From an uncultured Bacteroidales bacterium (GTDB taxonomy: Bacteria > Bacteroidota > Bacteroidia > Bacteroidales > FEN-979): a stretch of 40,922 bases of DNA. The translations under genes were made by a program, and so were the position numbers. Every line of letters starts with the position of its first letter. Within the stretch, counting starts at the first letter, position 1. Below are positions 3,656 through 39,510 of this stretch, in pieces. Below the pieces are notes generated by a model. That model saw only the letters and a list, made by a program, of their open reading frames with translations. It ran no database searches and was not told where the DNA came from. Location: NCBI GenBank assembly GCA_903875045.1, contig CAIQUS010000147.1, forward strand, positions 1 through 40,922, written 5' to 3'.

Positions 3656-5617
3656 TTAAAACTTTCTTAAAATTTGAATATATGTCCCCTTGAAATTGAT
3701 CTTGTCGCCAATGTAGTTTCGCCTGTACACCTCCACCCCGGCAGTCACATAAAGCTGATAAATAACCGAAGTAAGCTCAAGTCGTGCAGTAAGAAGATCG
3801 AGGTCGATTCCACGGCCCGATTGTTTCCGGTACATCACCTCCAGATTAACCTTTGTTTGTTTGATGATGTTGTATTCTGCTTTGCCCGAAACATCCGTAT
3901 ATCTTTGATTTCTGGCTTCAGGTTCATTCAGCATGGTGTAATTCTGCATGTTGCCGTTGAGGGCAAGCAGCCACTTATTTCGAAAACTTTTTTGAAGATT
4001 GATATAAAAGCGTGCCATGTGATAGGGCAAAATGGTGCTTTTGTAATCCTCATATTCAGCGCCCCCGCTCAGCAACCCAAAGCCTGCCCGAAAACCAATC
4101 ACGTTTTGGGTAAAATAGTTCAGGGTGATGAAATCGGTATTTTCAAGATTCCGGTAGTTTTGCAACGAAAGCCGGTAATAAACCTCAACCCTCCCTTTCA
4201 TCAGGGTAACATTGGCGGCAAAAGCATGATTGTCGGCATCGTATTTATATGAGCTTGGGAGTTTTGCTGTGTAATCCAGGTAAACAATTCCATCATTTGG
4301 AATGAGTCCGCTGGGAATACGACGGATTTCAATATATTTCCCACTTTCAATCAGTATATAATCCAGACCGATCTGGTAAATGATTGTACCGGTCACGTCC
4401 TTGACAACCACCGACGGAAGGTTGATATAGGGTCTTCGTAACAGTACTATTTTACTATCGTTAAGTGTATATTCTTCGTTGACAACATTCAACCGGATTG
4501 AATCGCTGAGGTATTTCTGATGGTATCTGAAATAACCATACGATAAATGTAATTCTCCCCAGGGAATTTTTTTCGTGTAATTGAAATCAAATCCGGTTTT
4601 ACTGTTATATTCGCTGTAAACCGTATGATTGATGCTGCTGTATTCAAAAAAGAACCTGGAGTTAAGGCTCTTGAAAAGCTTATGATTTAATGAATTTAAA
4701 GATGTATTCTGAATGAGTTTGCTTAACGGCTGGTTAATGTTGTAATAACTAAAATTTGTAGAAAACACAAAATTGGCGGGTAATTTTATGAATAGGTTTT
4801 CCATCGCCTGAAACCTGTTAAAATAGGTGCTGCCGTGCTGATAAATATTGGAGACGGTTGTGTTAAAAGTGAAGATTTTTTTTGGTCCCAGACTGATATT
4901 GCTGGTAAAATTCACATCATCAATGGTATTGGTCATGAAAAAATTGTTTTCATTCATGTTGGAATTGATTTTGTGCGAATAGGTCAAAAGTTGTCGGTCA
5001 TTTGCAGTGAACGATTGTTCCGCCCTGCCTTCAAAATGGGTTTGATCAATGTTCAGTACCCGGTGTGTCTGAATCTCTGTCTGAACCAATTTTCTTCTGT
5101 AAAAATCAAGCGTTACCGGAATATACTTATTGCTGTAGACCAAAGATCCGCCCAGATATTTATTTGTTGTTTTGATATCGGTCAGGTTCTCGCGTTTTGC
5201 ATAGCTTTCATCGAAATTGGCTGTCCCTACGACATTGATTTTCTTCCTGTTAAAAAAAGATGCGATCAGGTTTAGTTTCTTTACCGTTCTCACCTCCGAT
5301 TGGTCGGGCGATGCCATGAAATTGTCGCGGTTGGATTCGGGCATATAACCTGCGCCAAGTTCCAATTCGCAAAAATTGGGATGAAGCAGATAGGTGCTGG
5401 CATTTAACATAATCCCACCTGCATAATAATAACTCTGCTGCTTTTCAACGATCCTCTCGCCACTTTGCTCCCGGTTGCGATAAAAACCTTTGAAGCTTAA
5501 TTCCCCTGAATAAGCCCGAATACCAAATAGCCTGAATGAATCCGGAGATTTTTGTGCGAACCCAAAGCCCGGAGCAAATAAATAAATGATGAATAGGATG
5601 AAATGTTTCGCTTTCAA
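3656..5617 (-). CDS. Outer-membrane beta-barrel (porin-like), probable conduit sheath
   Basis: 653 residues with a signal peptide (MKAKHFILFIIYLFAPGFGFAQ), starting at a TTG codon 10 bases after the preceding stop. The rest is a run of short alternating hydrophobic/aromatic strands with polar turns, ending in QILRKF with a terminal Phe, as expected for an outer-membrane barrel. A segment around residues 395-450 (YQIGLDYILIESGKYIEIRR, then GIVYLDYTA) looks like a small globular insertion before the C-terminal strands. No cysteine haem motif is present. The family cannot be named with confidence. The gene order 5-haem lipoprotein, barrel, 9-haem cytochrome, all tightly packed on one strand, resembles the known porin-cytochrome complexes that carry electrons across the outer membrane. 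The conduit role is inferred from context. Confidence 0.75.
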   Translation of the reverse strand: MKAKHFILFIIYLFAPGFGFAQKSPDSFRLFGIRAYSGELSFKGFYRNREQSGERIVEKQQSYYYAGGIMLNASTYLLHPNFCELELGAGYMPESNRDNFMASPDQSEVRTVKKLNLIASFFNRKKINVVGTANFDESYAKRENLTDIKTTNKYLGGSLVYSNKYIPVTLDFYRRKLVQTEIQTHRVLNIDQTHFEGRAEQSFTANDRQLLTYSHKINSNMNENNFFMTNTIDDVNFTSNISLGPKKIFTFNTTVSNIYQHGSTYFNRFQAMENLFIKLPANFVFSTNFSYYNINQPLSKLIQNTSLNSLNHKLFKSLNSRFFFEYSSINHTVYSEYNSKTGFDFNYTKKIPWGELHLSYGYFRYHQKYLSDSIRLNVVNEEYTLNDSKIVLLRRPYINLPSVVVKDVTGTIIYQIGLDYILIESGKYIEIRRIPSGLIPNDGIVYLDYTAKLPSSYKYDADNHAFAANVTLMKGRVEVYYRLSLQNYRNLENTDFITLNYFTQNVIGFRAGFGLLSGGAEYEDYKSTILPYHMARFYINLQKSFRNKWLLALNGNMQNYTMLNEPEARNQRYTDVSGKAEYNIIKQTKVNLEVMYRKQSGRGIDLDLLTARLELTSVIYQLYVTAGVEVYRRNYIGDKINFKGTYIQILRKF

Positions 5618-5627
5618 TATCTGTCAG

Positions 5628-6251
5628 TTATTTTAGCATACTTCTGTCTCGTCCGCCATGCGGATTATGACAATTGGTACAACTTTGATCGGCAATATCT
5701 TTGTGTGCAGCACTCTTTAATATCGGTGAAGGATTGTGACAATAAAAACAAAGATCCTGGGTAACCCTTTTCAGTAATTTTTTGTTAACAGATGAATGTT
5801 GTTCGTGACAGGCCGTGCAATAACCTCCTCCCACAGGACCATGTACCACTTTATATTCTTTACTGTAATCTTCATGACATTGGTAACAAAGCGCGGGTTG
5901 TGGTTTCAAAAACTTCCCCATGGTGTTCTGGTCATGACAAACTCCACATTTCTTGTCTTTAAAAGGTTTGTGGTAATTAACAGCAGGCTTTTCTGATATA
6001 ACCCCGGCAACTTTAACTGAGCTGGTATCTGCTTTAACATTGGAGGTGTTGCCCACAACCGTCTGTGATTGGCCGGGATCAGGAACCCCGTCAAAGAAAA
6101 ACGATAATGTTTTGTGGCTGGGTACCGGCGAACAACCAAATAATACAAGAAGGAGGAAAATTGTTAACCGGTTCAGCAACAAAAATCCCCCGTCCCTGTG
6201 TTTGATTATTCTTCTGATGGCCCTGGCAGTCATTATTTTTAGGTTTATCAT
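5628..6251 (-). CDS. Pentahaem cytochrome c lipoprotein
   Basis: 207 residues. The lipobox is LVLFGC (Cys40), preceded by a hydrophobic stretch after a long basic n-region; a shorter start just before LLNRLTIF would give a more usual signal length, so the true start is uncertain. After the lipid cysteine comes KTLSFFFDGVPDP, a segment I recognise from other cytochrome lipoproteins of this kind. There follow a low-complexity linker and five CXXCH motifs: CGVCH, CYQCH, CTACH, CFYCH and CTNCH, the last in CTNCHNPHGG near the C-terminus. It is probably anchored to the periplasmic face of the outer membrane, although an external position is possible in this phylum. It precedes the barrel gene by 10 bp and would be its electron donor or acceptor. 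Confidence 0.87.
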   Translation of the reverse strand: MINLKIMTARAIRRIIKHRDGGFLLLNRLTIFLLLVLFGCSPVPSHKTLSFFFDGVPDPGQSQTVVGNTSNVKADTSSVKVAGVISEKPAVNYHKPFKDKKCGVCHDQNTMGKFLKPQPALCYQCHEDYSKEYKVVHGPVGGGYCTACHEQHSSVNKKLLKRVTQDLCFYCHNPSPILKSAAHKDIADQSCTNCHNPHGGRDRSMLK

Positions 6252-6282: not shown

Positions 6283-7380
6283 CTATTTTTTCTGTTGTTT
6301 ATTTTCCTTCAATTCAGGGGTCATTGGTTCAACATGGCCGTAGATGTTTAATTTGTCGGGCCCGAATTGATTGGTAACCAGAATCAGATACTTAAGATGA
6401 TAGGAGGGATCAACATATTTTTCAAAATATTGCAGATTGTCATAGTCGATTGTTAGCTTGGCAGGTAACCACATATCCCCCGGACCTTTGTAATTCCCGC
6501 CAAAAAACATCAGTAATTTTCCGTTCTTATCAAAAATCTGGACGTTTTCAAAGCCGGCATCCACAACGTAAAGATTTGATTCCAGGTCAACAGCGATGCC
6601 CTTGGGGCGTGCAAACTGACCCAGTCCTTCGCCATAAGTGCCAACAGTTTTAACAAATTGGCCTTCTTTGGTGTATATTTTTACTTTAAAATCGCCAAAG
6701 TCGGTAACATACACATTGTTATCGGTGACAAAGATATTCGTTGGGGAAAATAAGTATCCGGTACTATCGAGATTTACTTCCGGGAATTTATTTAACAATT
6801 TATACTCCGCATCATTGCTGTAAACATTGATTTGATGCCCGGCCAGATTCGATACCCATATTTTATTATCCCGAATAAAAACATCGGTGGGTTTGAAATT
6901 CTCCTTCTCACCAAAACTGGCAAAATATTCGCCCTTTTCATCAAATACAACTATTTGTTTTCTGTCGCCATCGGCCACATATAAATATTCATTTTTATCT
7001 ACAAAACAATTGATCGGATTTTTCAGTTCCCCTTTTGCAGTGGGGATAAAATCGCGAAAGGTGTTTTTTTTCAGGTCGATGATCTCAAGTCCGTGTTTTA
7101 ACCCGTCACAGATATATATTTTCCCGTTGAAAATATTTACACCGTAAGGCTTTCCAATCGGGATTTCCTCCTCTTTACCAAGAATAAATTTTTTAAACCC
7201 CCTCCTGCCTCCCTCCACATCAACCGAATTGCTGATCGTCATCAGAAATTGAATTCTGGCTGTATCTGGTGGCGACGGGTAAATGACCAGTTTGTTTTGT
7301 CCCCCTGCAGGATGAAGGCTCCGTGAACAGGAAACAAAAAGAGATATGGCAAGGGTAAATAAAATAATTCTGAATTTCAT
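6283..7380 (-). CDS. NHL-repeat beta-propeller lipoprotein
   Basis: 365 residues. A lipoprotein signal (MKFRIILFTLAISLFVSC) ends at Cys18. Residues about 70-300 are a beta-propeller of NHL-type blades. Recognisable blade signatures are NPINCFVDKNEYLYVADGDR, FSPTNIFVTDNNVYVTDFGD and ARPKGIAVDLESNLYVVDAG. NHL propellers are protein-protein or ligand-binding platforms and are often found beside multihaem cytochromes; no enzymatic residues are apparent. The gene heads the conduit operon 6283-7380 to 78-548. I saw no clear promoter between it and the hairpin at 7457-7500, so it may depend on readthrough from the 4-haem gene. It is one of three separate NHL propellers in the window. Confidence 0.85.
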   Translation of the reverse strand: MKFRIILFTLAISLFVSCSRSLHPAGGQNKLVIYPSPPDTARIQFLMTISNSVDVEGGRRGFKKFILGKEEEIPIGKPYGVNIFNGKIYICDGLKHGLEIIDLKKNTFRDFIPTAKGELKNPINCFVDKNEYLYVADGDRKQIVVFDEKGEYFASFGEKENFKPTDVFIRDNKIWVSNLAGHQINVYSNDAEYKLLNKFPEVNLDSTGYLFSPTNIFVTDNNVYVTDFGDFKVKIYTKEGQFVKTVGTYGEGLGQFARPKGIAVDLESNLYVVDAGFENVQIFDKNGKLLMFFGGNYKGPGDMWLPAKLTIDYDNLQYFEKYVDPSYHLKYLILVTNQFGPDKLNIYGHVEPMTPELKENKQQKK

Positions 7381-7526: not shown

Positions 7527-8156
7527 TTATTTATTATGGCATGTCAGGCATAATGCACTGGCTGCATTGCTTTTTACCAAAAGACTGGGAGGAGTACCGG
7601 CAGCATTGTTATGCACATCATGACAGGAAGAGCATTGTAATTTTCCTGCGATCAGCAAGTCATTGGTAATTGTACCGCCAAGGCCAGACAGATGTGTGGT
7701 AGGATTAAACAATCCCGGATCTGCTGTTGCCAACGCTGCATCATACGTAAAGGAAACAGGATGGTCATTGTTCAATTCAGTTCCAACCAAATTCGGACCG
7801 GTCATATAGGTAGTCCCACTGGTTACACCACCGAAATTTTGCAGCGCAACAGTACCATCATGACAACTCAGGCATAATTTTGAGCTTCCATCGGGCTGGC
7901 CAACGGTCGCGTTCATCGTGGCTGATGAATACACAAGATACGAAGCAACAGCGGATAACTGGTGATTCCACAAAGGTGCATTCGACACTGAGATGTCTGC
8001 ATTGTGCGGGGTATGGCAAACTTTACAGATTTCACCACTGGTGTTCCAGGTCTGTGTACTAAAATCATGTGCTGACCCAACGATAGTTTGCGCATTGATG
8101 AATGGTGTTAACATCAATATCGCGATTGCTGTGAGGAGTAAATTTAATTTTTTCAT
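7527..8156 (-). CDS. Tetrahaem cytochrome c, periplasmic or secreted
   Basis: 209 residues with a clear signal peptide (MKKLNLLLTAIAILMLTPFINAQ) and four CXXCH motifs: CKVCH (followed by TPH), CLSCH (followed by DGTVA), CSSCH (followed by DVH) and CLTCH at the extreme C-terminus. It has the doubled-CXXCH layout. It lines up along its whole length with the N-terminal module of the 12-haem protein encoded at 11399-13110; shared landmarks are GEICKVCHTPH / TEICLFCHTPH, LWN, YSS, GQPDG and NDHP. The two therefore arose by duplication. The gene has a sigma-54-like promoter 40-57 bp upstream of the ATG and a strong hairpin 26 bp downstream, so it looks like a separately controlled unit. Its small size suggests an electron shuttle between larger cytochromes. 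Confidence 0.88.
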   Translation of the reverse strand: MKKLNLLLTAIAILMLTPFINAQTIVGSAHDFSTQTWNTSGEICKVCHTPHNADISVSNAPLWNHQLSAVASYLVYSSATMNATVGQPDGSSKLCLSCHDGTVALQNFGGVTSGTTYMTGPNLVGTELNNDHPVSFTYDAALATADPGLFNPTTHLSGLGGTITNDLLIAGKLQCSSCHDVHNNAAGTPPSLLVKSNAASALCLTCHNK

Positions 8157-8196
8157 TGCGCTTATACTTTTTTAGTGAATAATGTTTTCCGGACAT

Positions 8197-8213
8197 TACA
8201 ATAAATGTGCCAA
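8197..8213 (-). promoter_or_regulatory. Sigma-54-like promoter of the 4-haem cytochrome gene
   Basis: On the minus strand the sequence reads TTGGCACATTTATTGTA. It matches the -24 box TTGGCAC exactly and the -12 TTG, but has T where the usual GC doublet has C (GG-N10-GT). The predicted start of transcription is near 8187, about 30 bases before the ATG. Confidence 0.55.
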
Positions 8214-8431
8214 ATATATTATAACTCTGTTTTTCAATATATTAAACTATCCATCATCTGTTTTGCTCATGGTTGAACGGGATGATTTTATCAAAAATAG
8301 ACTGAAACAAACCAAATCAGCAACAATATGCACCCGTGCTGATAAAAGAAAAATTGTTCTTTCCCTTATTTATCAAGGATTTGTTGGCATTTCGTACCAA
8401 TATACCGGCCAGGAAATCACCATGTCTCCTG

Positions 8432-8449
8432 GTGGGGCATATAACCCAC
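8432..8449. promoter_or_regulatory. Putative enhancer dyad A, GTGGG-N8-CCCAC
   Basis: The 18-bp sequence GTGGGGCATATAACCCAC has perfect 5-bp arms. It is followed by an equally spaced second copy 24 bp further on. Its centre is about 250 bp upstream of the predicted start for the 4-haem gene, a reasonable distance for an NtrC-type activator. Assignment to the activator encoded at 8481-9896 is inference. Confidence 0.5.
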
Positions 8450-8455
8450 AGTGCA

Positions 8456-8473
8456 GTGGGTGAAATAACCCAC
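8456..8473. promoter_or_regulatory. Putative enhancer dyad B, GTGGG-N8-CCCAC
   Basis: The sequence is GTGGGTGAAATAACCCAC, with the same arms and same N8 spacer as dyad A, and shared TAA before the right arm. The repeat period of 24 bp puts the two dyads roughly two helical turns apart. It ends 7 bp before the stop codon of the response-regulator gene, so it could also affect the 3' end of that transcript. Confidence 0.5.
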
Positions 8474-8480
8474 TCCATTG

Positions 8481-9896
8481 TTACAGCCTGTATTTCTTTA
8501 TTTTATACCTCAGTGTATCCCTTGAAATCCTGAGAAGCTTTGATGCTTTGGTTTGATTATTTTCAGATTTGTCCAACGCCTGTTTGATGACCTGTTTTTC
8601 AAGGCCGAATAATGACAGGCCACCTTCGGGGATCTCGATTTCACCGGGAGGCAGTGTGTTATCACTTGAAAAATAGTTCTTAGGAACTTCAATGGCATCT
8701 ACCTCAAAGCCATGATCAAGATGCATGATTTCTCCCGGAAGGCAATCGGCCTGTAAAACACTCGTGGTTTCAAGGATCACTGCACGTTCAATCACATTCC
8801 GCAGTTCCCTGATGTTTCCCGGCCAATCGTATTTCTTCAACAATTCAATGGCTGATTTGTGAATGCTGCTGATGTTTTTCTTAAACTGGTTGTTGTAGTA
8901 TTTAATAAAATAATCGGTTAAAAGGGGGATATCATCTTTATGCTCGCGCAGGGCTGGCAGGGTGATCTGGAATACTTTCAGCCGGTAATACAAATCCTCC
9001 CGGAATAATTTTTCATCTACTGCTTTCTTTAAATCTTTGTTGGTTGCCGCAATAATCCTGATTTCAACAGGAATGCCTGCCGTACCCCCTAAACGCCTGA
9101 TCACCCGGTTTTCGAGGACATTCAACAGTTTTATCTGGGTCGACATATTTATTTCGCCGATTTCATCTAAAAAAACAGTCCCTCCGTCAGCAATTTCAAA
9201 CAATCCCTTTTTTTGCTGCTTTGCATCTGTAAATGCACCCTTTTCATAACCGAAAAGTTCACTTTCCAGCAGGCTTTCGGGCAATGAAGAGCAATTAATG
9301 GTCACAAAAGGCCTGGTATTTTGTGAACCCTCATAATGGATTGCCCGTGCGAATAAATCCTTTCCGGTACCACTCTCACCAAGCAGTAAAATGGTGGTGG
9401 TTTGGGTTCTGGCGATCTTTTTTGAGAGTTGGATGATCTGCCTCAATGCTGCCGATTCCCCAATGATGTGATCGAATGTAACCGTCTCTTTCTGCTGGCG
9501 TCGCAGCAACTGGACTTCCTTGGTAATGGCGAGTTTTTGCTTTATGTTGCCAAGGATTACCTCAACCTCTTCAAACGAAAACGGTTTGTTGATATACTCC
9601 GATGCCCCGGCTTTCATGGCGCTCACGGCAGTATCGATCGATCCGAAGGCAGTCATAAACACAATGGCGGTTTCTTCATCCATTGATTTAATTTTCCGGA
9701 TCACTTCCAGTCCCTGCATCTGAGGTAACTTGTTATCGGTAAATACGATTTCCGGCTGATGCAGTTCAAATTCCCTGAGGCCCTCTTCTCCCGATTCGGC
9801 AGAGAAAACTTTATAGCCTTTTGAACTTAAATGTTTTTCAAGCGACCAGCGGATTAACTTCTCATCCTCGATGATCAGGATCTTTAATTGCTTCAT
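8481..9896 (-). CDS. NtrC-family sigma-54-dependent response regulator
   Basis: 471 residues, taking the start MKQLKILIIEDE, which follows the kinase gene by 10 bp. A longer frame would run into that gene. Receiver domain about 1-120: acidic pocket E10-D11-E12, phosphorylation site Asp54 in VFTDNKLPQ, and Lys104 in NKP. AAA+ domain about 140-370: Walker A GESGTGKD at 173-180, Walker B VFLDEIGE, and R-fingers in REDLYYRL. The sigma-54 contact loop reads GAFTDA (220-225) instead of the canonical GAFTGA. A Fis-type helix-turn-helix closes the protein (TKASKLLRISRDTLRYKIKK). It should activate sigma-54 promoters from upstream sites when phosphorylated by the neighbouring haem-containing kinase. 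It is the last gene of an operon that begins with a sigma-54-type promoter, so positive autoregulation is likely. Confidence 0.93.
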   Translation of the reverse strand: MKQLKILIIEDEKLIRWSLEKHLSSKGYKVFSAESGEEGLREFELHQPEIVFTDNKLPQMQGLEVIRKIKSMDEETAIVFMTAFGSIDTAVSAMKAGASEYINKPFSFEEVEVILGNIKQKLAITKEVQLLRRQQKETVTFDHIIGESAALRQIIQLSKKIARTQTTTILLLGESGTGKDLFARAIHYEGSQNTRPFVTINCSSLPESLLESELFGYEKGAFTDAKQQKKGLFEIADGGTVFLDEIGEINMSTQIKLLNVLENRVIRRLGGTAGIPVEIRIIAATNKDLKKAVDEKLFREDLYYRLKVFQITLPALREHKDDIPLLTDYFIKYYNNQFKKNISSIHKSAIELLKKYDWPGNIRELRNVIERAVILETTSVLQADCLPGEIMHLDHGFEVDAIEVPKNYFSSDNTLPPGEIEIPEGGLSLFGLEKQVIKQALDKSENNQTKASKLLRISRDTLRYKIKKYRL

Positions 9897-9906
9897 AAAT
9901 ACTATT

Positions 9907-11379
9907 CTAAAAACTTCTATGACCATTTGTTGTTTGAACCGGCAGTGAGATAAAAAAGGTACATCCAACATCTTTGTTGTTCTCAAACCAGATTTCCCCT
10001 TTATGTTTTTCAATGATATCCTTTGAAATGGCCAATCCCAAACCAGTACCTTTGGTATGTGTTGTAAAGAACGGCTTAAAAATATCATCTTCTATCTCTT
10101 TTGGAATGCCCGTGCCATTATCCCTCACAGCAATGATAAGAATTTTTCGGGCCTTGTCATAACTGGTTTTGTAAGAGATAACTGCGTGATCATTGGTGGC
10201 TTTGATGGCGTTGAAACTGAGATTCAGTAAGATGTTTTCCAAAAGTTCATGATCAAATAACAGTATTGGCAAATCCTCCTGAAGATCCATCTCAAAATTG
10301 ATCTGTTTTTCATGGGCCTGATGTCGTAAGAAGAAAACCATCGACCGGATCACTTCATTGATATCCCCTTCATGTAAGCTGATATCCTTGGCCCTTGAAT
10401 ATTTTAACAGATTTGATATCGCATGTTCAACCCGGTTTGCCTGACGTTGAATCTCCTCCAGGATTGGCTTGTTGCGATCATCTTTTGAGTCGGCAATGAT
10501 TATTTCCATGGCCCTGGCAATGCCGGTGATCGGATTTCTGATTTCATGTGCGATCCTGGCTGACATTTCACCGATGGTGGCCAGTTTTTGTGAATTCTGC
10601 AGTTCCTTCTGATGAAACAGGTTGAGTTCACGCTGAGTCCTTTCAAAGGTGTCGAGCATTTCATTGAAACTTTTGCCAAGGCTGCCAAGCTCTTTTACTT
10701 CGGGAATGGCCAGTCTCATTTCGAGATTCCCCTTGTTGATCAGGGTGATGGTTGACCGGAAGTGGCTCAACGAACTCCGGATATACCGATAATGAAGGTA
10801 TGCAACCAGCCCGAAGATACCAAAGAGCAGCAAGATCGTATACAGGAAGCTAAAATTCCAGGTATATGAAATAATTTTCTCTGTGCCATGATTTGAAACA
10901 TCCAGAATAATCAAACCCAATGTTTTTTGAGCAGGACTATGACATGAATAGCAGGACGTTGTGTTTTGCATCCGGATAAATATCCGGTTGAACGGGATGG
11001 GTTCCTGCAGATAAGTTACAATAGATATTTCCTTCTTCTGCGAAAATAATTGTTTGAAAAGCAGGGTGTCCATTTTAAGTGCCCTGTAGTTTTGAGGGTA
11101 AATCACCTGCGATTTGGCATTGACCAGAAAGGTTCTCAGTATATCTTTATTTTGCTCTGTGTTTTTCAACATGGGACGTATAATTGTACCATCCTGCTGT
11201 CGGATTGAAAAATAATACTGATCGCGCAAAAGGTTCAGGTGTTCAATATTCTCTTCGGTATTTAATATCAATTTATTCTTCAGGGAAAAGTTATAGATGG
11301 TAAAAGCGATCATGGAGTAAATCGTAATCCCGATGATGAGTGTGGCAATTATTTTAACCCGGAAAGAAAACCAATTCAT
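9907..11379 (-). CDS. Sensor histidine kinase with periplasmic haem c motif
   Basis: 490 residues. Membrane helix about 8-30; periplasmic sensor about 31-170; second helix about 173-196; HAMP linker about 197-250. The HisKA dimerisation domain carries His278 in ARIAHEIRNP, and the HATPase domain shows DNGTGIP, FKPFFTTHTKGTGLGL. The sensor domain contains CYSCH (Cys143, Cys146, His147), in the context NTTSCYSCHSPAQKTLGLI, directly before the second helix. A CXXCH at this place is the mark of a covalently bound haem c and is known from redox-sensing kinases and chemoreceptors of metal-reducing bacteria. The kinase should sense redox state, or a gas bound to haem, and phosphorylate the response regulator encoded 10 bp downstream. 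It follows the 12-haem cytochrome gene by 19 bp. Confidence 0.92.
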   Translation of the reverse strand: MNWFSFRVKIIATLIIGITIYSMIAFTIYNFSLKNKLILNTEENIEHLNLLRDQYYFSIRQQDGTIIRPMLKNTEQNKDILRTFLVNAKSQVIYPQNYRALKMDTLLFKQLFSQKKEISIVTYLQEPIPFNRIFIRMQNTTSCYSCHSPAQKTLGLIILDVSNHGTEKIISYTWNFSFLYTILLLFGIFGLVAYLHYRYIRSSLSHFRSTITLINKGNLEMRLAIPEVKELGSLGKSFNEMLDTFERTQRELNLFHQKELQNSQKLATIGEMSARIAHEIRNPITGIARAMEIIIADSKDDRNKPILEEIQRQANRVEHAISNLLKYSRAKDISLHEGDINEVIRSMVFFLRHQAHEKQINFEMDLQEDLPILLFDHELLENILLNLSFNAIKATNDHAVISYKTSYDKARKILIIAVRDNGTGIPKEIEDDIFKPFFTTHTKGTGLGLAISKDIIEKHKGEIWFENNKDVGCTFFISLPVQTTNGHRSF

Positions 11380-11398
11380 TTCATCTGCATCTAAAAAG

Positions 11399-13110
11399 TT
11401 AATAACTCAGGGGATTATGATTTTTTCCATGACAAGTAAGATAGCATTGACCATGATGGCCGCCCATATCCACAAATTTCAACTGTCCTGATGAACTTGG
11501 GGTGGTTACCCCGGCTTTAAAATTTATCAGGTTTGTGTTGTTTGACTGGGTTCCCTGCGTAATACTGATCCCATGTGGATCATGACAAGTATTGCATGGA
11601 GCCCTCACCTCCGACTGAAGGTGCTTATTATGTTCTTTAAAGGAAGCATCACTTAAAATAGAAGCACGGCTGTGGCAGCTGTAACAGAGTGCATACGCAG
11701 ATGGTGATTCGGTAGTACCCGTTGCAGTGGTACCGCCATCATTGGTAAGGTTCTGCAACTTTAATATGTGTGGATAAATTGAGCCATGCGGACCGGCAGT
11801 GGACGAAGAGCCATCGCCGGCATGGCAACTGGTACAGTACATAATGCTGGAAGTTGTCCAGGGTGATATCAAACTGGGGACCATGGTATTTTTACCCATC
11901 GCCGACACGGGATGATAGGAAGGGTTTGCCGGGGCAAATTCGAGGAGCGCACTGTTCTGAACTAAAATTCTGGGGGTTGCCGGTGGCGGTGAACCCGAAC
12001 TTCCGGCATGGCACCGGTAGCATATCTCGTATTCATAAGATGCCGGGTTTATCGCGGTGCCGGTTTGTGTGATGCCCTTTACACCGGCTAAAGCGCCACT
12101 TGCATTCGGTGGAGCCGCCTCCATGTTTTTTGCAGCATGCGGATTATGGCAATCAACACATTCAACATGCATGTTGGTATACAACTGGTTGGGTTCATTC
12201 GGAACGTGAATTTTGAGGTAGTTGCCAATATTGTGTTTGTACGACTTATTAAACTCGGCTGCAATATTTTTCGCAGCCACATTTCCGTTATGGCAATCGA
12301 GGCAGTTATTCTCTTCATTCTGATACTTTAACAGCATCACATCTGAACCGGAATTATGCGGATTGTGGCAGCTTTCACAACCATTTTGTGCTACCGTGGT
12401 GTAAGATGGCGGGGTGTAGGGCCATGGATCAGGAGGCGTGTCATTCCAGGTTTTTGTCGAAGTACTGTGACTGCTTGCCGGCCAATATTCCCGTTGATGA
12501 CAGCTATTACACAAATTGGAATTTTCAGTGGTTGTGACCAGAAAAGTGAAATCATGTTTTTATGCGGATTGTGACAGGAGGTACATTGTACTTTGCCTTT
12601 TTCGAGCGACACAGGCGGAATGATCGCGGAAGGCGGTCTTAACTGGCCATCTGCCAAGGCCAGAGATGAGGTATAAAGAAATGAAATGGGGTGGTCGTTT
12701 TTCAGATTTGTATTCAGGTTAGATAATCCGGCCGGCATGGTGGTTACACCTTCCTGGAAAGCCCTGACAGATGACCGGCTGATTACGCTTCCCAAAGCGA
12801 TGGTCCCATCGTGGCATGAAAGACAAAGGATGGAAGTCCCATCGGGCTGCCCGGGCAAAGCCTGCAAGGTTGAACTGGAATATAGTGTGTAAATCACTCC
12901 CTGATCATTTCTGTTCCATAACGGGGTCAACGGTCTGCTGCTGTGTGGTGTATGACAAAACAGACAAATCTCGGTCTCGCTCGATGATTTTAAATCACCT
13001 GGTCCCTGTACGGAAAGATTGTGTTTGGTTGTAACAATTGATTGTGAATATATCATGGCAGGAAGCCACAAAATCATAAGTATTATATATGGCAGTAAAA
13101 TCTTTTTCAT
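11399..13110 (-). pseudogene. Dodecahaem cytochrome c gene interrupted by one frameshift
   Basis: One reading frame (12391-13110) gives a signal peptide (MKKILLPYIILMILWLPAMIYSQ) and CLFCH, CLSCH, CTSCH, then degenerates after CTSCHNPHKN. The next frame (to 11399) continues sensibly with HDFTFLVTTTENSNLCNSCH and carries CNSCH, CESCH, CLDCH, CVDCH, CYRCH, CTSCH, CYSCH, CNTCH and a final CYLTCH (CX3CH). The switch is at the A5 run 12557-12561 (minus strand); one more A would join the frames. The 4-haem paralogue at 7527-8156 is uninterrupted across the equivalent point, so this is one gene, of about 570 residues and 12 haem sites. The break may be a homopolymer read error or a true lesion. The C-terminal half is homologous to the end of the giant cytochrome at 17728-24630. 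Its ATG overlaps the stop of the upstream NHL gene (ATGA). Confidence 0.85.
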
Positions 13111-14141
13111 TTTTTATTCCCATAAACAAGCTGAAACACCTGTATCCTTGAGTTGTAACAATCAGCTATATAGACAAAATCGCTGTCATCGATAAAAATA
13201 CCTGATGGCATCCAGAATTCTCCCTGCTTCTGCCCCTGGTTGCCCAGGTTGTAAAGAAAAACACCTTTCATGTCGAATACCTGTACAACATGAAACAACG
13301 CATCTACAATATAAATATTTCCATGTGAATCCGTTGCTATTCCCTTTGGCCGGGCAAAATACCCTGACGCATCGCCCGGTTCCCCGAAAACAGAAATGAC
13401 CTCCCCCTCAGAACTTAAAATCTGCACCCTGAAATTCATGGCGTCGATGACATAAAGAAGGCCGGCTTTATCGATCCATATATGTGTCGGATAATTAAAT
13501 TCTCCGGCTGCAGTACCCCTGGAACCAATGTGTTTGACAATTTCACCCTTTTCATTCAAAACTGCAATGCGATGTGCATTGGTTTCGACCACATAAATTT
13601 GATTTGTCACGGATGAAAAAGCGATACCTGTTGGCTGATCCAATGGTATTGTGTCGTTCAATATCTGAAGTTGCTTTTTTTCCGGAAGAATTTTATAAAT
13701 TTTCTTTGCGTGGGAGTCAGTAAAGATAAAACCGTCTGGTGGGATCGCACAAATTCCAACCAATGAAGAAAAGTCGAAAGTTGACTTTCTGATAAAGTGG
13801 GGGATTTCACCCACCTCTCGCTGGACATGAAAAATTGATTTGGCACCTTGGTCCAAAATCCAGAAATTTCCCGGATTTAAGGCTAAAACCGAAACAGGTC
13901 TTGATAAAACAGGTGTTTTCTTTCCAAGGAAAATGGCATTGAACCTGGTCTTGAAAGTATGGGTTTTTTGTTTTTTATCCGCTGATGGCCATTGCTTTAC
14001 CCACCGGATCTGAGGTATCTCCAAAGATTTCTGAGGTATTGCAGTGATGGTATCCTGGGAATGCCCGGAAAAACCAAGACCGGCAAACACCAGTAAAGAA
14101 ATTACGGGAGTTTTAAGATGGGTCACAACACTGGCTATCAT
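13107..14141 (-). CDS. NHL-repeat beta-propeller protein, secreted
   Basis: 344 residues from the ATG at 14141; a TTG five codons upstream (14156) is an alternative. A hydrophobic segment (TPVISLLVFAGLGFSGHSQ) acts as signal peptide. NHL blades are visible from about residue 75 to the end, e.g. QPTGIAFSSVTNQIYVVETN, YPTHIWIDKAGLLYVIDAMN, ARPKGIATDSHGNIYIVDAL and MPSGIFIDDSDFVYIADCYN. It is similar in plan to the NHL lipoprotein at 6283-7380 but lacks a lipobox. As first gene of the minus-strand operon it precedes the 12-haem cytochrome with a 4-bp ATGA overlap, which argues that the two products work together, perhaps as scaffold and cytochrome. A putative enhancer dyad lies inside its coding sequence at 13797-13814. 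Confidence 0.87.
   Translation of the reverse strand: MIASVVTHLKTPVISLLVFAGLGFSGHSQDTITAIPQKSLEIPQIRWVKQWPSADKKQKTHTFKTRFNAIFLGKKTPVLSRPVSVLALNPGNFWILDQGAKSIFHVQREVGEIPHFIRKSTFDFSSLVGICAIPPDGFIFTDSHAKKIYKILPEKKQLQILNDTIPLDQPTGIAFSSVTNQIYVVETNAHRIAVLNEKGEIVKHIGSRGTAAGEFNYPTHIWIDKAGLLYVIDAMNFRVQILSSEGEVISVFGEPGDASGYFARPKGIATDSHGNIYIVDALFHVVQVFDMKGVFLYNLGNQGQKQGEFWMPSGIFIDDSDFVYIADCYNSRIQVFQLVYGNKK
13797..13814. promoter_or_regulatory. Putative enhancer dyad C inside NHL gene
   Basis: The sequence GTGGGGGATTTCACCCAC is a third GTGGG-N8-CCCAC dyad. It agrees with dyad B at 14 of 18 positions. It lies about 450 bp upstream of the predicted plus-strand start near 14260, and inside the divergent NHL gene. 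Its coding location means that chance or codon constraint cannot be excluded. Confidence 0.35.
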
Positions 14142-14202
14142 GGAGAATAACGACAAAATGCAAAGGTATCAGGATTTGTAAAAGGGATTAACAATTGGCC
14201 AT

Positions 14203-14219
14203 AGCAAATTCCGTGCTAA
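14203..14219 (-). promoter_or_regulatory. Sigma-54-like promoter of the NHL/12-haem/kinase/regulator operon
   Basis: The minus strand reads TTAGCACGGAATTTGCT. It fits the consensus YTGGCACGRNNNTTGCW at every position except that the first G of the -24 doublet is A. The predicted start of transcription is near 14193, about 50 bases before the ATG at 14141. Confidence 0.5.
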
Positions 14220-14233
14220 AAAATTTACGAAGG

Positions 14234-14252
14234 TTGGCATAATTGTTGCCAA
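14234..14252. promoter_or_regulatory. Palindromic, bidirectional sigma-54-like promoter
   Basis: The sequence TTGGCATAATTGTTGCCAA is an inverted repeat (TTGGCA ... TGCCAA). On the plus strand it reads TTGGCA-N7-TGCC with an exact GG-N10-GC spacing and the -12 TTGC, pointing to 14316 with a start near 14260. On the minus strand the same bases again give GG-N10-GC (-12 ATGC), pointing to 14141. The plus orientation is the better match. Confidence 0.6.
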
Positions 14253-14315: not shown

Positions 14316-17300
14316 ATGAAGCTGATAAATAACCTTATTGTTTTGCTGGGGATCATGATCGTTTCTATCAGCAGCATTCATGGTCAGGGTTCCCCTGGTG
14401 GTTTTGCATACGCATCCACCATAAGTGATAGTTTGTCATCGCCTGTGCGGATGGCCATTGACAACATGGACAACATTTATGTAACGGATGCTTTTCAGAA
14501 AAAAATCCGAAAATACAATGCTGCCGGTGTATATACCGGTTCAATCGTGACAGCAGGTTCCCCAATATCCATCGCCATCAACGAGGCAAATCAAATTTTT
14601 ATCGGGGATGGGGAAACAGGTAAAATTTTCAAGCTCCTTTCAAATGGAACAGCTGCCGAATTTTACGCAGGTACGGTTTTTCCCACATCCATGGTGTTTT
14701 GTTCCGATGGGTTTCTTTACGTTTCAGACAGTAAACTTCAACGGGTGGTTGTTCTCAACTTATCAGGAAATCTGGTAAGGACCATCGGAGCCGGAACATT
14801 AACTTTTCCAACAGGAATTGCCTTTGATAAAAAAAATAACCGGATACTTGTTGCGGAGCACGGTGGGATCGGTACAGGTTTTAATCCTGTGGTGAAAATC
14901 AGAATTTATGGATTGACAGGTAATCTGATTACCAGTTTCGGTTCCCATGGCTACGGGGACGGGAAATTTTACCGGATTCAGGGTTTGGCTACAGGCCGAT
15001 GTGGTGAGATTTATGTCCCGGAACCTTATCAGGGCAATGTAAGTGTTTTTAACGAAACCACCATTTTTGCAACCAGGTTTGGCCACTACGGGGATAGCAT
15101 TGGTCAGCTGCGTGTTCCATTGGATATCGCCATTAATTCACAGGATAAGATTTTCATTACTGCTGAAAACAATGGGGCGATTGAAGTGTATGATATCAAT
15201 TACCTGTTGCCTACTGCAAATATTACCTGCGGAGATAAAACAATTTGTGCAGGGACAACCACTGATATTCCGGTTCACTTTACAGGTACTGCCCCATGGA
15301 CATTTACCTATACCATCAATGGCACAAACCCTGTAACCATCAGCAATACCATCAGCAATCCATATATCCTGACTGTTTCTGCTCCCGGGAATTATCAGGT
15401 AACAGCCGTTTCAGATTCAAGTCACACAGGGACATGTTTTTCGGGAAATTCGATCATTGCCGTTAATGCTATCATTCCAACCGCTACCCTTGCAAGCGGA
15501 AACTTCGGGTTCTGTCCTGGTCAGACAGCCTCAATTCCTGTTGAATTTACCGGTACATCCCCATGGACATTCACTTTCACCAGGAACGGCACAAACCCTC
15601 AAACTATAAGCAATGTGACCACCAATCCATATTTGCTGAGTGTTTCCGAAGCCGGCACTTACCAACTTACTGCATTGTCGGGTGGTGGATGTGCCGGTTC
15701 TGTTTTTTCAGGAAATGCCATAGTGACCTCCCACATCGCCCCCAACGCATCCATTATTAACGGGAATACCAGCATTTGTGCGGGTGATTCGACAAACCTG
15801 GTTATCGGGTTTACCGGAGCGGCCCCCTGGTCGTTCACCTATACCATTAACAATGCGAATCCTGTAACAATCAACAGTATCACTGATAATCCTTATCTTT
15901 TGCCTGTCTCGCTTGCCGGAAGTTACAAAATCATTGAAGTACAGGATGCTTTCTGTTTAAGCACTCTTTCCGCTAATGGTGTTGACGTCATGGTCAAAGC
16001 ATTGCCAACCTCAGATGTCTCTTCGGGTAATGCTGCTATTTGTCCGGGAAATACAACCAGCATTATTGTTGATTTAACGGGTCTGGCACCATGGAATTTT
16101 ACCTATACCATGAATGGCATCAACCCGGTAACCATCAGCGGGGTGACCTTCACCCCTTATGTTTTACCTGTTTCCCAGGCCGGCAATTATCAGGTAACTG
16201 CCTTATCGGATGCTGGTTGTGCCGGAATAAGTTTTACCGGGGCAGCCCTCATAACCGTAAATCCATTGCCGGCTGTCACGCTTGGCCCACCTGCAGCTAT
16301 ATGTAACGGTGATTCGCTTGTGATCGATGCAGGCGCCGGTTTTCTCCGTTATCTGTGGAGTGATTCCACTACCGGCACCACCATGACCGCACATAGCGCC
16401 GGCATTTACAGCGTAACGGTTACCGATTACAATGGCTGCCAGAATTCTGCTTCAAAAATCATCACCTCATTTACTTTGCCCACTTCGGCCATGACCAGTG
16501 GAAATGCAACCATTTGCACGGGAGAAACAACAGATTTGTCAGTTGCACTTACCGGAACACCGCCCTGGTCGATTACTTATACCGTGAACGGTATGAATCA
16601 GCAAACCGTCAGCAATATCATGGCCAGTCCATACCTGTTGAACGTGTACCAACCCGGCGGTTATCAGATCATTCAAACCACCGATGCACATTGCAGCAAT
16701 CCTGCCTCCTCCCAGGTAGCTGTGGTTACCGTGAATCCATTGCCGACTTATAATTTTTCATCAGGAAATGCGTCGATCTGCTCAGGACAATCGACCAACC
16801 TGGTTATCGATTTTACAGGAACACCGCCATGGAGTTTCACATATACTTTAAACGGCACCAATCCTGTAACATTCAATGGGGTCATGGTCAGCCCAATGGT
16901 CATGCAGATATCGCAGGCTGGCACTTATGAAATCATCGCCTTGTCGGATGCCTTTTGCACAGGGCCGGCCTATAACGGAACCGCTACCATTGTTGAAAAT
17001 TCCTTACCTGCAGTTAACCTTGGCCCCGATGTGACCATTTGCGAAGGCGATACAATTACCCTCGATGCCGGATGTTCGTTTGCAGGATATTTATGGAACA
17101 ACGGGAGTACCGGCCAAACACTGCAAGTGAGTGATGCTGGAAGTTATGCGGTTACGGTAACAGACTACAATGGTTGCGCCAACTCCGACGGTATAATTAC
17201 AGGAATGACCGCACCCCCTGTTTCCCTTTTTACCAGCAGTTCGAATGGGCTCATTCTCAGTCTGTTTAATGCCTCACTCCATGCAACATCTTATCTTTGG

Positions 17301-17714
17301 GCATTTGGCGACAACACAACCAGTACCGAAATCAACCCGATTCACATCTACCAGACGGCGGGAACCTATCTGGTAAGCCTTACGGCATCAAACGGCGTTT
17401 GCCGCGACAGCATCACAAGCCAAAATGTAAATATTGTATTAACCTCTGCCGGCGGGCATAGTCTTGAGAACGTTCTTAAACTATATCCAAATCCTTCGAC
17501 AGGTATCGTGACGATTGAAATCAGCAATCCCGGCAAACAGGATCTGAGGGTTGAAATAAAAGACATTGCCGGGCGACAGATTTATTCTCAAACAATAAGT
17601 ACCATTCATTTTAAGGAGAAGGTAGATCTTGGCAATTTCGCCAATGGTTTTTATATGGTCAAACTCAGCGCCGGGAACATCTCCCGGATATCCAAATTGG
17701 TTTTGATTGATTAA
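14316..17714 (+). CDS. NHL-propeller/Ig-repeat surface protein with type IX sorting domain
   Basis: 1132 residues. A signal peptide (MKLINNLIVLLGIMIVSISS) is followed by an NHL propeller at about 25-298 (e.g. SPVRMAIDNMDNIYVTDAFQ, FPTGIAFDKKNNRILVAEHG). Eight Ig/PKD-like repeats span 299-964, a PKD-type domain (YLWAFGDNTTSTEINPIHIY) covers about 965-1045, and a C-terminal sorting domain of type A lies at 1051-1132 (LKLYPNPSTGIVTIEISN ... NGFYMVKLSAG). The sorting domain marks it as cargo of the type IX secretion system, to be exported and anchored on the cell surface. Six repeats share the core CxG.T..I...FTG.APW.FTYT.NG.NPVT; two are of a second type with YLW and VTVTDYNGC. It heads the plus operon and ends 13 bp before the ATG of the giant cytochrome. 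I infer a surface platform for that cytochrome. Confidence 0.9.
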   Translation: MKLINNLIVLLGIMIVSISSIHGQGSPGGFAYASTISDSLSSPVRMAIDNMDNIYVTDAFQKKIRKYNAAGVYTGSIVTAGSPISIAINEANQIFIGDGETGKIFKLLSNGTAAEFYAGTVFPTSMVFCSDGFLYVSDSKLQRVVVLNLSGNLVRTIGAGTLTFPTGIAFDKKNNRILVAEHGGIGTGFNPVVKIRIYGLTGNLITSFGSHGYGDGKFYRIQGLATGRCGEIYVPEPYQGNVSVFNETTIFATRFGHYGDSIGQLRVPLDIAINSQDKIFITAENNGAIEVYDINYLLPTANITCGDKTICAGTTTDIPVHFTGTAPWTFTYTINGTNPVTISNTISNPYILTVSAPGNYQVTAVSDSSHTGTCFSGNSIIAVNAIIPTATLASGNFGFCPGQTASIPVEFTGTSPWTFTFTRNGTNPQTISNVTTNPYLLSVSEAGTYQLTALSGGGCAGSVFSGNAIVTSHIAPNASIINGNTSICAGDSTNLVIGFTGAAPWSFTYTINNANPVTINSITDNPYLLPVSLAGSYKIIEVQDAFCLSTLSANGVDVMVKALPTSDVSSGNAAICPGNTTSIIVDLTGLAPWNFTYTMNGINPVTISGVTFTPYVLPVSQAGNYQVTALSDAGCAGISFTGAALITVNPLPAVTLGPPAAICNGDSLVIDAGAGFLRYLWSDSTTGTTMTAHSAGIYSVTVTDYNGCQNSASKIITSFTLPTSAMTSGNATICTGETTDLSVALTGTPPWSITYTVNGMNQQTVSNIMASPYLLNVYQPGGYQIIQTTDAHCSNPASSQVAVVTVNPLPTYNFSSGNASICSGQSTNLVIDFTGTPPWSFTYTLNGTNPVTFNGVMVSPMVMQISQAGTYEIIALSDAFCTGPAYNGTATIVENSLPAVNLGPDVTICEGDTITLDAGCSFAGYLWNNGSTGQTLQVSDAGSYAVTVTDYNGCANSDGIITGMTAPPVSLFTSSSNGLILSLFNASLHATSYLWAFGDNTTSTEINPIHIYQTAGTYLVSLTASNGVCRDSITSQNVNIVLTSAGGHSLENVLKLYPNPSTGIVTIEISNPGKQDLRVEIKDIAGRQIYSQTISTIHFKEKVDLGNFANGFYMVKLSAGNISRISKLVLID
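15210..17207 (+). repeat. Eight tandem Ig/PKD-like coding repeats
   Basis: Six units of about 86-90 codons begin PTxxxxSGNxxIC and contain PWxFTYTxNGxNPVT. Units five and eight are shorter and of a different type (GDSLVIDAG / GDTITLDAG, YLW, VTVTDYNGC). The arrangement AAAABAAB suggests duplication of a block. DNA identity among units is moderate, so unequal crossing-over is possible but not extreme. Confidence 0.8.
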
Positions 17715-17727
17715 ACAACCCATTATC

Positions 17728-20700
17728 ATGACAAAAGTATATTATAAATATCCGACTCAGGGGCAACGAATTTTGAACAGAATCGCGGGTAAACACACGT
17801 ATCTGGTTTTGTTGTTCCTGGTGTTAAGTGCGAATGCCAGTGTGTTTTCTCAAACAATCACCAGTGTGGCAAATGGCGGGAACTGGAGTTCACCTGCAAC
17901 CTGGATCGGCAATGTTGTTCCGGGGCCTGCGAACAGTGTAATTATTGCGGGGAGTGGGAATAATGTTACCCTTGATGTAAATGCCACCATTGTGAATCTG
18001 ACCATTGATAACGGGGGATTGGTCGACCGCGCCAGGTTGGCTCACAGTGGCACAAATTCACTTATAGTTACCGGAACGGTGACCATCGTACAATCAACTG
18101 TTGCAAGTGTTTCCAACGCCTGGCGCATTGATGCCGGTTCGGCTACTGTTTCCGGGTTGATCAATTTCCCTGGTACCTCTACGGATGCCAGTCGTACTGC
18201 AACCATCAGGATTTCTTCTGGCACCCTGAATGCAAACGGAGGTATTTCCTTCACCGGTTCAGTGGCTGCTTCAAAAGTGATCAACATGTCACAAACCCCT
18301 GGGACCGGTACCCTAAACCTGAAAGGTGCGCTTACGGTTCCTGCTCTTTCCTCCACGCTGACTGCAGGAACATCCGGCAGCATCTTTAATTATGCAGATG
18401 CAAATCCACAAACCATCAATTTCTTTTCTTCGGGGGCTTATCGGAATTTGAACATCAACAACACCAGTTCGACCGGGGCTATATTAAGTGCGGCAATAAC
18501 ATCTGCAAACGTAACCGGAAATATTGTTGTCGGGAATGTAAATACGGGAAGTTTGTTTGCTACGGGCAATTTCAACATAGGGCTCGCCAATTCAAGATCA
18601 TTGACCATCAATCCCAATTCAACCATGGATGCAGGAACCAGTGTTGCTACATTCGGCACCACACCCGGTTCTGCCATTATCAACGGCATTTTTAAGACTG
18701 CAAATACCAATGGGTTTTCAGGGGCGGCAACGACTGCAATCAATTCAACCAATAACCCGGTCATAACCCTGGGCCCAGCCTCAACAATTGAGTATAATGC
18801 AGCCGGAACACAGAAAGTAACCGATCGCACCTATGCAGGTAATGTTATTTTAACGGGCGGCACGAAAACCATCGGGACGGCGGTTTCCCAGACAGTGACA
18901 ATCGGAAAAAATTTCACGATCAACAGCGGGGCCACCTATGAGGGGTCAACGTTCAACCCGATTTTATTTGTCGGGGGTGATTTTTCAAACAGCGGTATCT
19001 TTACCCAGGGAACCAGTCTGGTAACCTTTAATGGTACGATTGCACAAAATATTTCGGGATCAGTGAACACGATATTTTCCAATAGTGTTACCCTGAGCAA
19101 TGCCACCGGGCTTAACCTCCTCACCTCCCCGACCATCCATGGCACACTGACCTTTGCCAGTGGTAAAATCACCACGGGGGTGAATAAGCTGACCCTTGGT
19201 GTTTCAGCGACCACAGTTGGTGCAGGTGCCGGGAAATATGTTTATGGCAACCTTGAGTTATATATTCCCAATACTGTGGCGCCGTCAGTGACTTTTTTCG
19301 TTGGGGATGCCGCAAATTACACCCCCATTCTCATTGCATTTTCGGGCAACACTGCCGGTTCAGGCTCACTTATTGCATCATCCACCGCCGGTGATCACCC
19401 GGATATTGCCAATTCAGGTATCAACCCTTCCTTAAGTGTCAACCGAAACTGGACAATCGCCCAGGGTTCAGTTCCTGTAGGCGGCTTCACCTCCTACAGC
19501 GGAACCTTTACCTTTATCAACGGGACACCGGTTGACCTTGATCCTGGGGCCAACACGGCCAGTTTTATTGTAAACAAACTGACAGGCAGCACCTGGGGAT
19601 CTACCAATACCGGTACCCGGACAATCACATCTACCCAGGTTACCGGGCTGACAAACTTCGGTACCTTTCAAATCGGTGAATCGGGATCGTTGATCAACGT
19701 GGCTACCCATCCCGTCAACACCACGGTATGCCAGGGTGCCACCACTTCATTTACCAGTACCTCCGTATCGGTGCCAACGCCAACCGTTCAGTGGCAAAGG
19801 GATCCCAATACCGGTATTTTTGCCGATATTACAGCGGCCATGGATGGCGGCATTTATACCAATTTTACCACCACCACCCTGAACATTTCAAATTCAACCG
19901 GATTAAATAATTACCAATACAGGGCAGTATTCACCAACGTAAACGGCACAGCCACCTCAAACAACGCCATCCTTACTGTTACAAGTTTTCCTGCTGCGGC
20001 AGGTGCAATTACCGGTATCGGAACAGTTTGCCAGGGGCAGTCGGGAGTGGCCTATTCGGTGGGTGCCATTGCTGGCGCCACAAACTATAACTGGATTTAT
20101 AGCGTACCAGGTTTCACCCCTTCAGGAAATACAACTACTATAACCGGGAGTTTTTCACCAACCACTACTTCCGGGAACCTGACCGTTACCGGAGTAAATT
20201 CCTGCGGCAGCGGAATAGTTTCCGCAAATTTTCCCATTACGGTCAACATACTGCCGGCGCCTGCAGGAAACATTAGTGGCACTTCCACTGTTTGTCAGGG
20301 CCAGACTGGCGTTGCTTATTCAGTTCTGCCAATAGCGGGGGCAACAACTTACACCTGGACCTATTCCGGAACCGGTTTCACATCAACTGGCACCGGGAAT
20401 TCCATCACAGGTAGTTTTTCAACCAATGCAACTTCCGGTAACCTCACCGTCAGAGGAATCAATGCCTGTGGCAACGGAGTTATTTCAGCCAATTTCCCGA
20501 TTACGGTTAACCCACTGCCCGGCGCAGCAGGAACCATCACCGGCACTTCTTCTGTTTGCCAGGGACAGGCAGGTTTTACCTATTCAGTTCCAGCTGTAAC
20601 AGGGGCTACCAGTTATACCTGGAGTTATACAGGGACAGGATTTACCCCGTCAGGCAACACCGCCTCCATCACCGGAAGTTTTTCGGCCGGGGCCACTTCC

Positions 20701-39506: not shown

Positions 39507-39510
39507 AGTT

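Follow-up and report, generated by a model that had tools for sequence, protein, structure and literature searches.

A putative heme-sensing kinase and an NtrC-type regulator probably form a self-activating sigma-54 circuit within a Bacteroidales multiheme-cytochrome cluster

To our knowledge, the control of surface electron conduit building is poorly understood outside Geobacter and Shewanella. The question is raised by a 40,922-nucleotide stretch of DNA from an uncultured Bacteroidales bacterium (contig CAIQUS010000147.1 of assembly GCA_903875045.1, the whole of which is called the window here), in which a multiheme-cytochrome and outer-membrane-barrel cluster houses a histidine kinase and an NtrC-type response regulator, adjoining each other. 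Does this pair control the cluster in which it sits, and through which DNA sites? Comparison with related loci makes it quite likely that the two proteins form a dedicated, self-activating two-component sigma-54 circuit inside the module it controls, itself a probable extracellular-electron-transfer set. Such a circuit had been proposed in the initial annotation of this DNA, which is right in outline.

On the minus strand the genes run in the order NHL2, mhcC, kinase, regulator, a gap, tetraH, NHL1, mhcB, barrel, and mhcA, while the divergent genes on the plus strand encode an NHL/PKD protein, a 2307-residue protein with 19 CxxCH motifs, and a PorP-like protein. From NHL2 through the regulator the genes overlap or stand at most ∼20 bases apart, and from this tight spacing we infer one operon. 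A 324-base gap precedes the conduit genes. In the proposed circuit, the periplasmic sensor of the kinase would carry one covalent c-type heme, and a change at this heme, most likely in its redox or coordination state, would alter kinase activity. The kinase would phosphorylate the regulator. Bound to a 16-bp palindrome, TGGGKNAWWTNMCCCA, which occurs as a tandem pair downstream of the regulator gene and once more within NHL2, the regulator would drive the sigma-54 polymerase at three -24/-12 promoters, as an activator rather than a repressor. The predicted outputs are tetraH-NHL1-mhcB-barrel-mhcA, a probable trans-outer-membrane electron conduit; NHL2-mhcC-kinase-regulator, hence self-activation; and the divergent NHL/19-heme/PorP-like operon. 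The positive loop drawn in the initial annotation would follow from this anatomy, as one of the operons bearing these sites contains the pair. The parts of the circuit in the window are as follows.

9907-11379, minus strand: histidine kinase (Pfam, alignments)
8481-9899, minus strand: NtrC-type response regulator (Pfam, alignments)
8197-8212, minus strand: putative -24/-12 element TGGCACATTTATTGTA before tetraH, 56 bases ahead of the start codon
14203-14218, minus strand: putative -24/-12 element TAGCACGGAATTTGCT before the NHL2-mhcC-kinase-regulator operon, 62 bases ahead of the start codon
14235-14250, plus strand: putative -24/-12 element TGGCATAATTGTTGCC before the divergent operon, 81 bases ahead of the start codon
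8432-8449, no strand assigned: proposed upstream activating sequence (UAS) copy 1, GTGGGGCATATAACCCAC, from pattern scans and locus comparison
8456-8473, no strand assigned: proposed UAS copy 2, GTGGGTGAAATAACCCAC, 24 bp from copy 1 and immediately after the stop codon of the regulator gene
13797-13814, no strand assigned: proposed UAS copy 3, GTGGGGGATTTCACCCAC, within the NHL2 coding sequence

The kinase is composed of a hydrophobic segment, a periplasmic sensor, a second hydrophobic segment, HAMP, HisKA, and HATPase_c, with HisKA and HATPase_c above the Pfam cut-off and HAMP slightly below it (24.2 versus 25 bits). The CYSCH motif that had been noticed in the sensor is borne out, as is the NtrC-type nature of the adjoining protein: the motif occupies residues 143 to 147 (C143-Y-S-C-H147) between the two hydrophobic stretches, and the sensor would therefore face the periplasm, where c-type heme gets attached. 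Over 12 aligned sensors, nothing is invariant except F6, N139, and both cysteines and the histidine of CxxCH, and the motif is also present in a fragment from genome G016. Sensor identity falls to 27%, and to 13% with distant relatives, with CxxCH still invariant. When a profile of the sensor was compared with the sequences in the PDB, the top two matches were GSU0935 (E = 8.5e-4) and GSU0582 (E = 0.039), with the motif aligned. A model of moderate quality (predicted local distance difference test score [pLDDT] of 72, predicted template modeling score [pTM] of 0.51) shows a Cache-like strand order, in which a short helix carrying CxxCH precedes the last strand. A Foldseek search with this model returned a WalK model first and 3b42/3b47, the GSU0582/GSU0935 domains, at ranks 2 to 4, with a root mean square deviation of 13 to 16, perhaps because those structures are swapped dimers. 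A PDB search with the single sensor sequence matched nothing, and a Pfam search with the sensor alone gave two chance-like viral families only. From its sequence and predicted fold, the sensor probably works like the heme-c Cache sensors and is kin to them, though outside PF11845 membership.

Other kinases of the phylum carry a CxxCH sensor in three genomes without a barrel match (L034, L035, and L036). Neighboring genes encode NtrC-type regulators in L034 and L035 (by eye) and multiheme cytochromes in L034 and L036.

The regulator has a receiver domain (D54), a Sigma54_activat AAA+ domain (227 bits versus a cut-off of 20.2), and a Fis-type helix-turn-helix (HTH); its best NCBIfam model, AtoC, stays under the cut-off (445 versus 714 bits). 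The sigma-54 loop reads GAFTDA instead of GAFTGA, as it does in 7 of 7 regulator homologues, and GAFTDA is listed among the variants still compatible with activation (PMC4641369). The gene rpoN, which the initial annotation expected elsewhere in the genome, is present there, and it was found in 15 of the 16 distinct related genomes searched (18 of 19 entries). Since rpoN was also found in the six genomes that have the barrel without the kinase, these differ in the regulator and its sites. The earlier statement that sigma-54 is the sole route of action for NtrC-family proteins goes too far, TyrR and HupR being exceptions.

The kinase-regulator pair tracks the cluster in near relatives, together with the palindrome and with the -24/-12 sites, the conservation of pair and promoters being what the initial annotation had looked to. 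The sensor was found in 8 of 120 genomes (own genome included) and the barrel in the same 8, and a nine-gene core is syntenic in the seven relatives. A scan of contigs with a barrel profile gave 16 loci, mostly labeled as Bacteroidales or Bacteroidetes metagenome-assembled genomes (MAGs), with kinase and regulator present in 10 and absent from 6 (L047, L050, and L053 to L056). The genomes of these six gave no sensor match at an E value of ≤0.01, G519 being just 1.6 Mb. L046 was classed as kinase-bearing; its contig begins inside the regulator gene and is without NHL2, and the kinase is on another contig of the same genome. Duplicate contigs were counted once (G015 = L041, G016 = L042, G013 = L043, G002 = L044, G104 = L048, G022 = L049, and G081 = L051). 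L053, which lacks a tetraH match and in which NHL2 matches the NHL1 gene, tests little and was excluded from the promoter-score comparison. The palindrome table covers 17 loci, with L039 (G279) outside it.

The three sigma-54-like sites described initially exist, and their conservation across relatives backs them. When the 250 bases before tetraH were aligned for eight genomes, little was shared beyond the start and TGG(C/T)A(C/T)-N5-TTG, which is kept in all eight, and across loci the element stands 54 to 101 bases ahead of the start. The best sigma-54 score between 40 and 110 bases upstream of tetraH, obtained with a sigma-54 matrix, ranged from 5.9 to 15.0 in 11 kinase-bearing loci (window included) and did not exceed 3.7 in any of 5 kinase-less loci (P = 0.0011, one-sided and uncorrected for kinship). 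Before the kinase operon, T(A/G)GCA(C/T)-N5-TTG is found at 51 to 84 bases in 8 of 10 kinase-bearing loci, L052 being one base off and L048 doubtful; scores upstream of NHL2 were 6.9 to 12.8 in the 10 kinase-bearing loci versus below 0 in four kinase-less loci and 12.0 in a fifth (L056). All five genus genomes examined retain the divergent site, TGGCATAATT(G/C)TTG, two of them before an added 4-heme gene; in G081 the match is weak (5.5). With a sigma-54 matrix on 430-base stretches, 1, 7, and 8 of 300 shuffles scored as well as the three sites. We consider the three sites credible because they are conserved across relatives, though they are unremarkable in the window alone. The 4-heme gene heading the divergent operon in two genus relatives encodes a c554-like cytochrome, by eye (L011, 17559-18137; L015, 16723-17241).

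The palindrome is newly found here. It was first drafted from the gap between regulator and tetraH in the window, G013, and G015, and this first pattern has three sites in the window (6 matches on two strands) versus 0.76 expected, with 0 of 100 shuffles reaching 6. Exact copies of TGGGKNAWWTNMCCCA number three in the 5.96-Mb own genome, every one of them in the cluster. In seven kinase-bearing relatives 16 of 18 exact copies are in the cluster, and 20 kinase-less genomes have 10, scattered. The tandem pair lies directly behind the regulator in all 11 kinase-bearing loci of the 17-locus table, 20 to 24 bases start to start and with at most two mismatches per copy, and the NHL2 copy lies at +337 to +343 in 9 of the 10 kinase-bearing loci with NHL2, the tenth (L048) having it behind the gene. 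Six kinase-less stretches, five of them with both genes, have no copy with fewer than two mismatches and none near tetraH or NHL2. A looser tandem pattern matched once each in 8 of 11 kinase-bearing whole genomes and in 0 of 18 kinase-less ones, with 0 of 29 for the reversed control; it missed G015, G016, and G104 because one half deviates. From its sequence and distribution we consider the palindrome probably the regulator's enhancer. In the window the tandem pair stands ∼230 to 250 bases before the tetraH -24 element, and the NHL2 copy ∼400 bases from both divergent -24/-12 sites, so that a single in-gene site may serve both promoters. A coding constraint as the cause of the NHL2 copy is ruled out, since five kinase-less NHL2 homologues are without the peptide and the palindrome and the L048 copy is behind the gene.

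One relative has a further pair. In G104 (L048, ∼19657-20000), an extra tandem pair with one mismatch per copy precedes an operon for a twin-arginine translocation (TAT)-signal iron-sulfur (FeS) protein, NrfD, and a cytochrome c, and the regulator may have a second target there. As a general target this operon was rejected: among 47 matches in 20 genomes, of which 30 loci were viewed, paired sites occurred in G104 alone.

Several observations weigh against a dedicated sigma-54 circuit of this kind. PF11845 gave no sensor match at an E value of ≤0.1, nor at ≤10. A window scan for TGGCACN5TTGCW with up to two mismatches gave 33 matches versus 27 expected, a number equaled by 16 of 100 shuffles; none of the eight aligned genomes has TTGC as the -12 half before tetraH, which reads TTGT or TTGG instead; and the tetraH promoter scores of L046 (5.9) and L049 (7.0) are low. 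In the kinase-less L056 a fair -24/-12 match, TGGCAATATACATGCA, lies 76 bases upstream of the NHL2 start and accounts for the score of 12.0 given above. G517 (L045) has kinase, regulator, promoters, and palindromes, yet neither rpoN domain family matched there, perhaps because the MAG is incomplete. The final palindrome pattern was framed after viewing sites in the same loci, and allowing one mismatch adds 24 sites in the own genome, for 27 in total versus 4 for the reversed pattern. A wider regulon in this genome is disfavored by the 12 of these 24 that were examined: all are within open reading frames (ORFs), none has a CxxCH ORF within ∼1.5 kb, and one (L060) has a sigma-54-like match nearby. 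Phylum-wide, kinase and barrel are not coupled: among 395 genomes the sensor profile matched six and the barrel profile three, with the own genome as the sole overlap, and G279 has the barrel without the sensor. On the barrel tree the kinase trait needs four changes and a single kinase-bearing clade is rejected (approximately unbiased test, P = 0.0027); independent contrasts number one on well supported branches and four on all, so the loci are not independent (both traits were entered with identical values, and only the contrast count was used). Finally, a self-activating loop requires a basal promoter for the kinase operon, for which there was one scan, of ∼8100-8700 only. The main weight of the evidence is carried by short conserved islands in diverged DNA and by the genome-wide uniqueness of the exact palindrome.

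The signal itself may be read differently. In the same circuit the heme could sense nitric oxide (NO) or another diatomic gas, with NO or denitrification intermediates switching the cluster. A heme-c Cache protein with signaling architecture is described as binding NO tightly, with no stable oxygen complex (2026 preprint, PMC12889525), GSU0582 and GSU0935 bind NO and carbon monoxide (PMC8396549), and no distal heme ligand is conserved across the aligned sensors, so a site for a gas could exist. We nevertheless consider gas sensing unlikely, as the conserved gene neighbors are multiheme cytochromes and the barrel, no denitrification gene is seen among the 13 proteins of the window that were searched for families, and a redox-linked change of spin or coordination is proposed for the Geobacter domains, with potentials of -156 and -251 mV (PMC8396549). 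A more radical departure, that the CxxCH of the kinase is not a sensing heme site and marks a structural heme, metal binding, or a disulfide, would fit the missing PF11845 match and a heme attachment that is putative. It appears improbable in view of the motif's invariance at the low identities given above, of the profile and fold comparisons, which point to two crystallized heme-c sensors (the profile match also aligns the motif), and of a gene at 25745-29578 for cytochrome c assembly (ccsBA-type by eye). Sensing of redox state by a c-type heme is the reading we prefer.

The DNA sites raise similar doubts. The palindromes could serve another DNA-binding protein or be RNA hairpins, with the regulator acting elsewhere; hairpins are frequent downstream of operons, which is where two of the three copies lie. 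We give this little credence, since the tandem pair is present in 11 of 11 kinase-bearing loci and in 0 of 5 kinase-less loci having tetraH, the third copy is mid-gene, and a spacing of 20 to 24 bp is about two helical turns. Across 33 palindrome sites, pairing is possible at positions 5/12 in only 15, at 6/11 in 20, and at 8/9 in 17; the half-sites vary independently, which disfavors a hairpin. A scan near 8100-8700 found no terminator at the palindrome pair, and no Rfam family in the window scored above its gathering score. As for the promoters, the -24/-12 matches might be there by chance and the operons might use an ordinary Bacteroidota sigma factor, which would be plausible from the window alone, where matches are no commoner than in shuffles. 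Chance is ruled out by the conservation of the tetraH site, an island kept in the diverged intergenic DNA of eight of eight genomes that co-occurs with the regulator, and we regard this alternative to a sigma-54 circuit as extremely improbable.

Each part of the module has a counterpart in known systems. Like our sensor, GSU0582/GSU0935 of Geobacter sulfurreducens, Tll0287/DUF3365 (sCache_heme, PF11845), and DcrA have a periplasmic domain between two hydrophobic helices, and ours appears Cache-like in its model of moderate quality, with the CxxCH helix before the last strand. The output differs, being a histidine kinase beside an NtrC-type regulator in a cytochrome/barrel cluster and with PF11845 unmatched, whereas GSU0582 and GSU0935 themselves are chemotaxis proteins. 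Eight G. sulfurreducens two-component proteins are counted as carrying CX2-4CH motifs (PMC8396549). With NtrC-family activators of the AtoC/NtrC/ZraR type our regulator shares the receiver, Sigma54_activat, and Fis HTH domains, but it has GAFTDA, its own palindrome, and exact sites in its own cluster only. In G. sulfurreducens, sigma-54 is tied to extracellular-electron-transfer cytochromes, as proposed here, with the consensus TTGGCACGGTTTTTGCT; omcB is among the genes reported up with extra RpoN (PMC2725144), while here, in Bacteroidota, the regulator would be devoted to a single conduit cluster. Porin-cytochrome conduits (MtrCAB; OmbB-OmaB-OmcB with OrfR/OrfS; ExtABCD) have a large barrel flanked by multiheme cytochromes, as here. 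The omb clusters, as described in PMC4589669, also have a regulator gene alongside, with OrfR/OrfS as putative factors and OrfS of TetR type, in contrast to the two-component sigma-54 pair found here. Our barrel is without a Pfam family, and NHL propellers are constant partners. The module has the porin-cytochrome layout, with large barrel and multiheme cytochromes in one cluster, and is predicted to transfer electrons across the outer membrane.

It is possible, though doubtful, that the kinase heme is electrically coupled to its own conduit, with mhcC or tetraH donating electrons, so that the kinase would sense electron back-up and set the number of wires. If true, the circuit would be a closed-loop regulator, taking as input the redox load of what it produces and using a single in-gene enhancer for two divergent promoters. 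For a single compact module we can name the sensor, the regulator, three predicted promoters, and a specific candidate operator; the group is met here only as MAGs, and the proposed circuit is therefore testable in vitro without culturing the organism. In the open-access literature searched, we found no report of a heme-c kinase/NtrC pair controlling a Bacteroidota conduit cluster.

The remaining genes of the cluster are as follows, the 4-heme gene of the initial annotation being tetraH.

7527-8156, minus strand: tetraH, tetraheme cytochrome with 4 CxxCH (Paired_CXXCH, Pfam), head of the conduit operon
6283-7380, minus strand: NHL1, beta-propeller (NHL) protein (Pfam)
5628-6251, minus strand: mhcB, pentaheme cytochrome with 5 CxxCH, probable lipoprotein by eye
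3656-5617, minus strand: large outer-membrane beta-barrel (AlphaFold model), conserved along with the cluster
2722-3654, minus strand: mhcA, octaheme cytochrome with 8 CxxCH
13107-14156, minus strand: NHL2, beta-propeller protein (Pfam), first gene of the kinase operon
11399-13110, minus strand: mhcC, 11-heme cytochrome with 11 CxxCH, frame-broken (ORFs 12391-13110 and 11399-12514)
14316-17714, plus strand: NHL/PKD-type protein with a Por secretion tail (family search), first gene of the divergent operon
17707-24630, plus strand: 2307-residue protein with 19 CxxCH
24653-25735, plus strand: PorP/SprF-like protein (family search)

The frame break of mhcC lies at ∼12,391-12,600 and may be a sequencing error or real; six of seven relatives have a single open 11-heme frame, and in the seventh (G016) several genes are frame-broken. 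The AlphaFold model of the barrel has a mean pLDDT of 83, a pTM of 0.64, and 30 strands of at least 10 residues. No Pfam family matched the barrel, and in Foldseek the MtrB structure 6r2q_B had the best template modeling score (0.43, below 0.5) among the 50 matches listed, ranking seventh by E value.

The cytochrome c assembly gene adjoins the cluster, and relatives of it are near the cluster in several other loci. Just downstream of mhcA, at 587-2752, is a gene for a Peptidase C25 family protein, which adjoins the cluster in three relatives too. A possible transposase, identified by eye, is encoded at 39469-40866.

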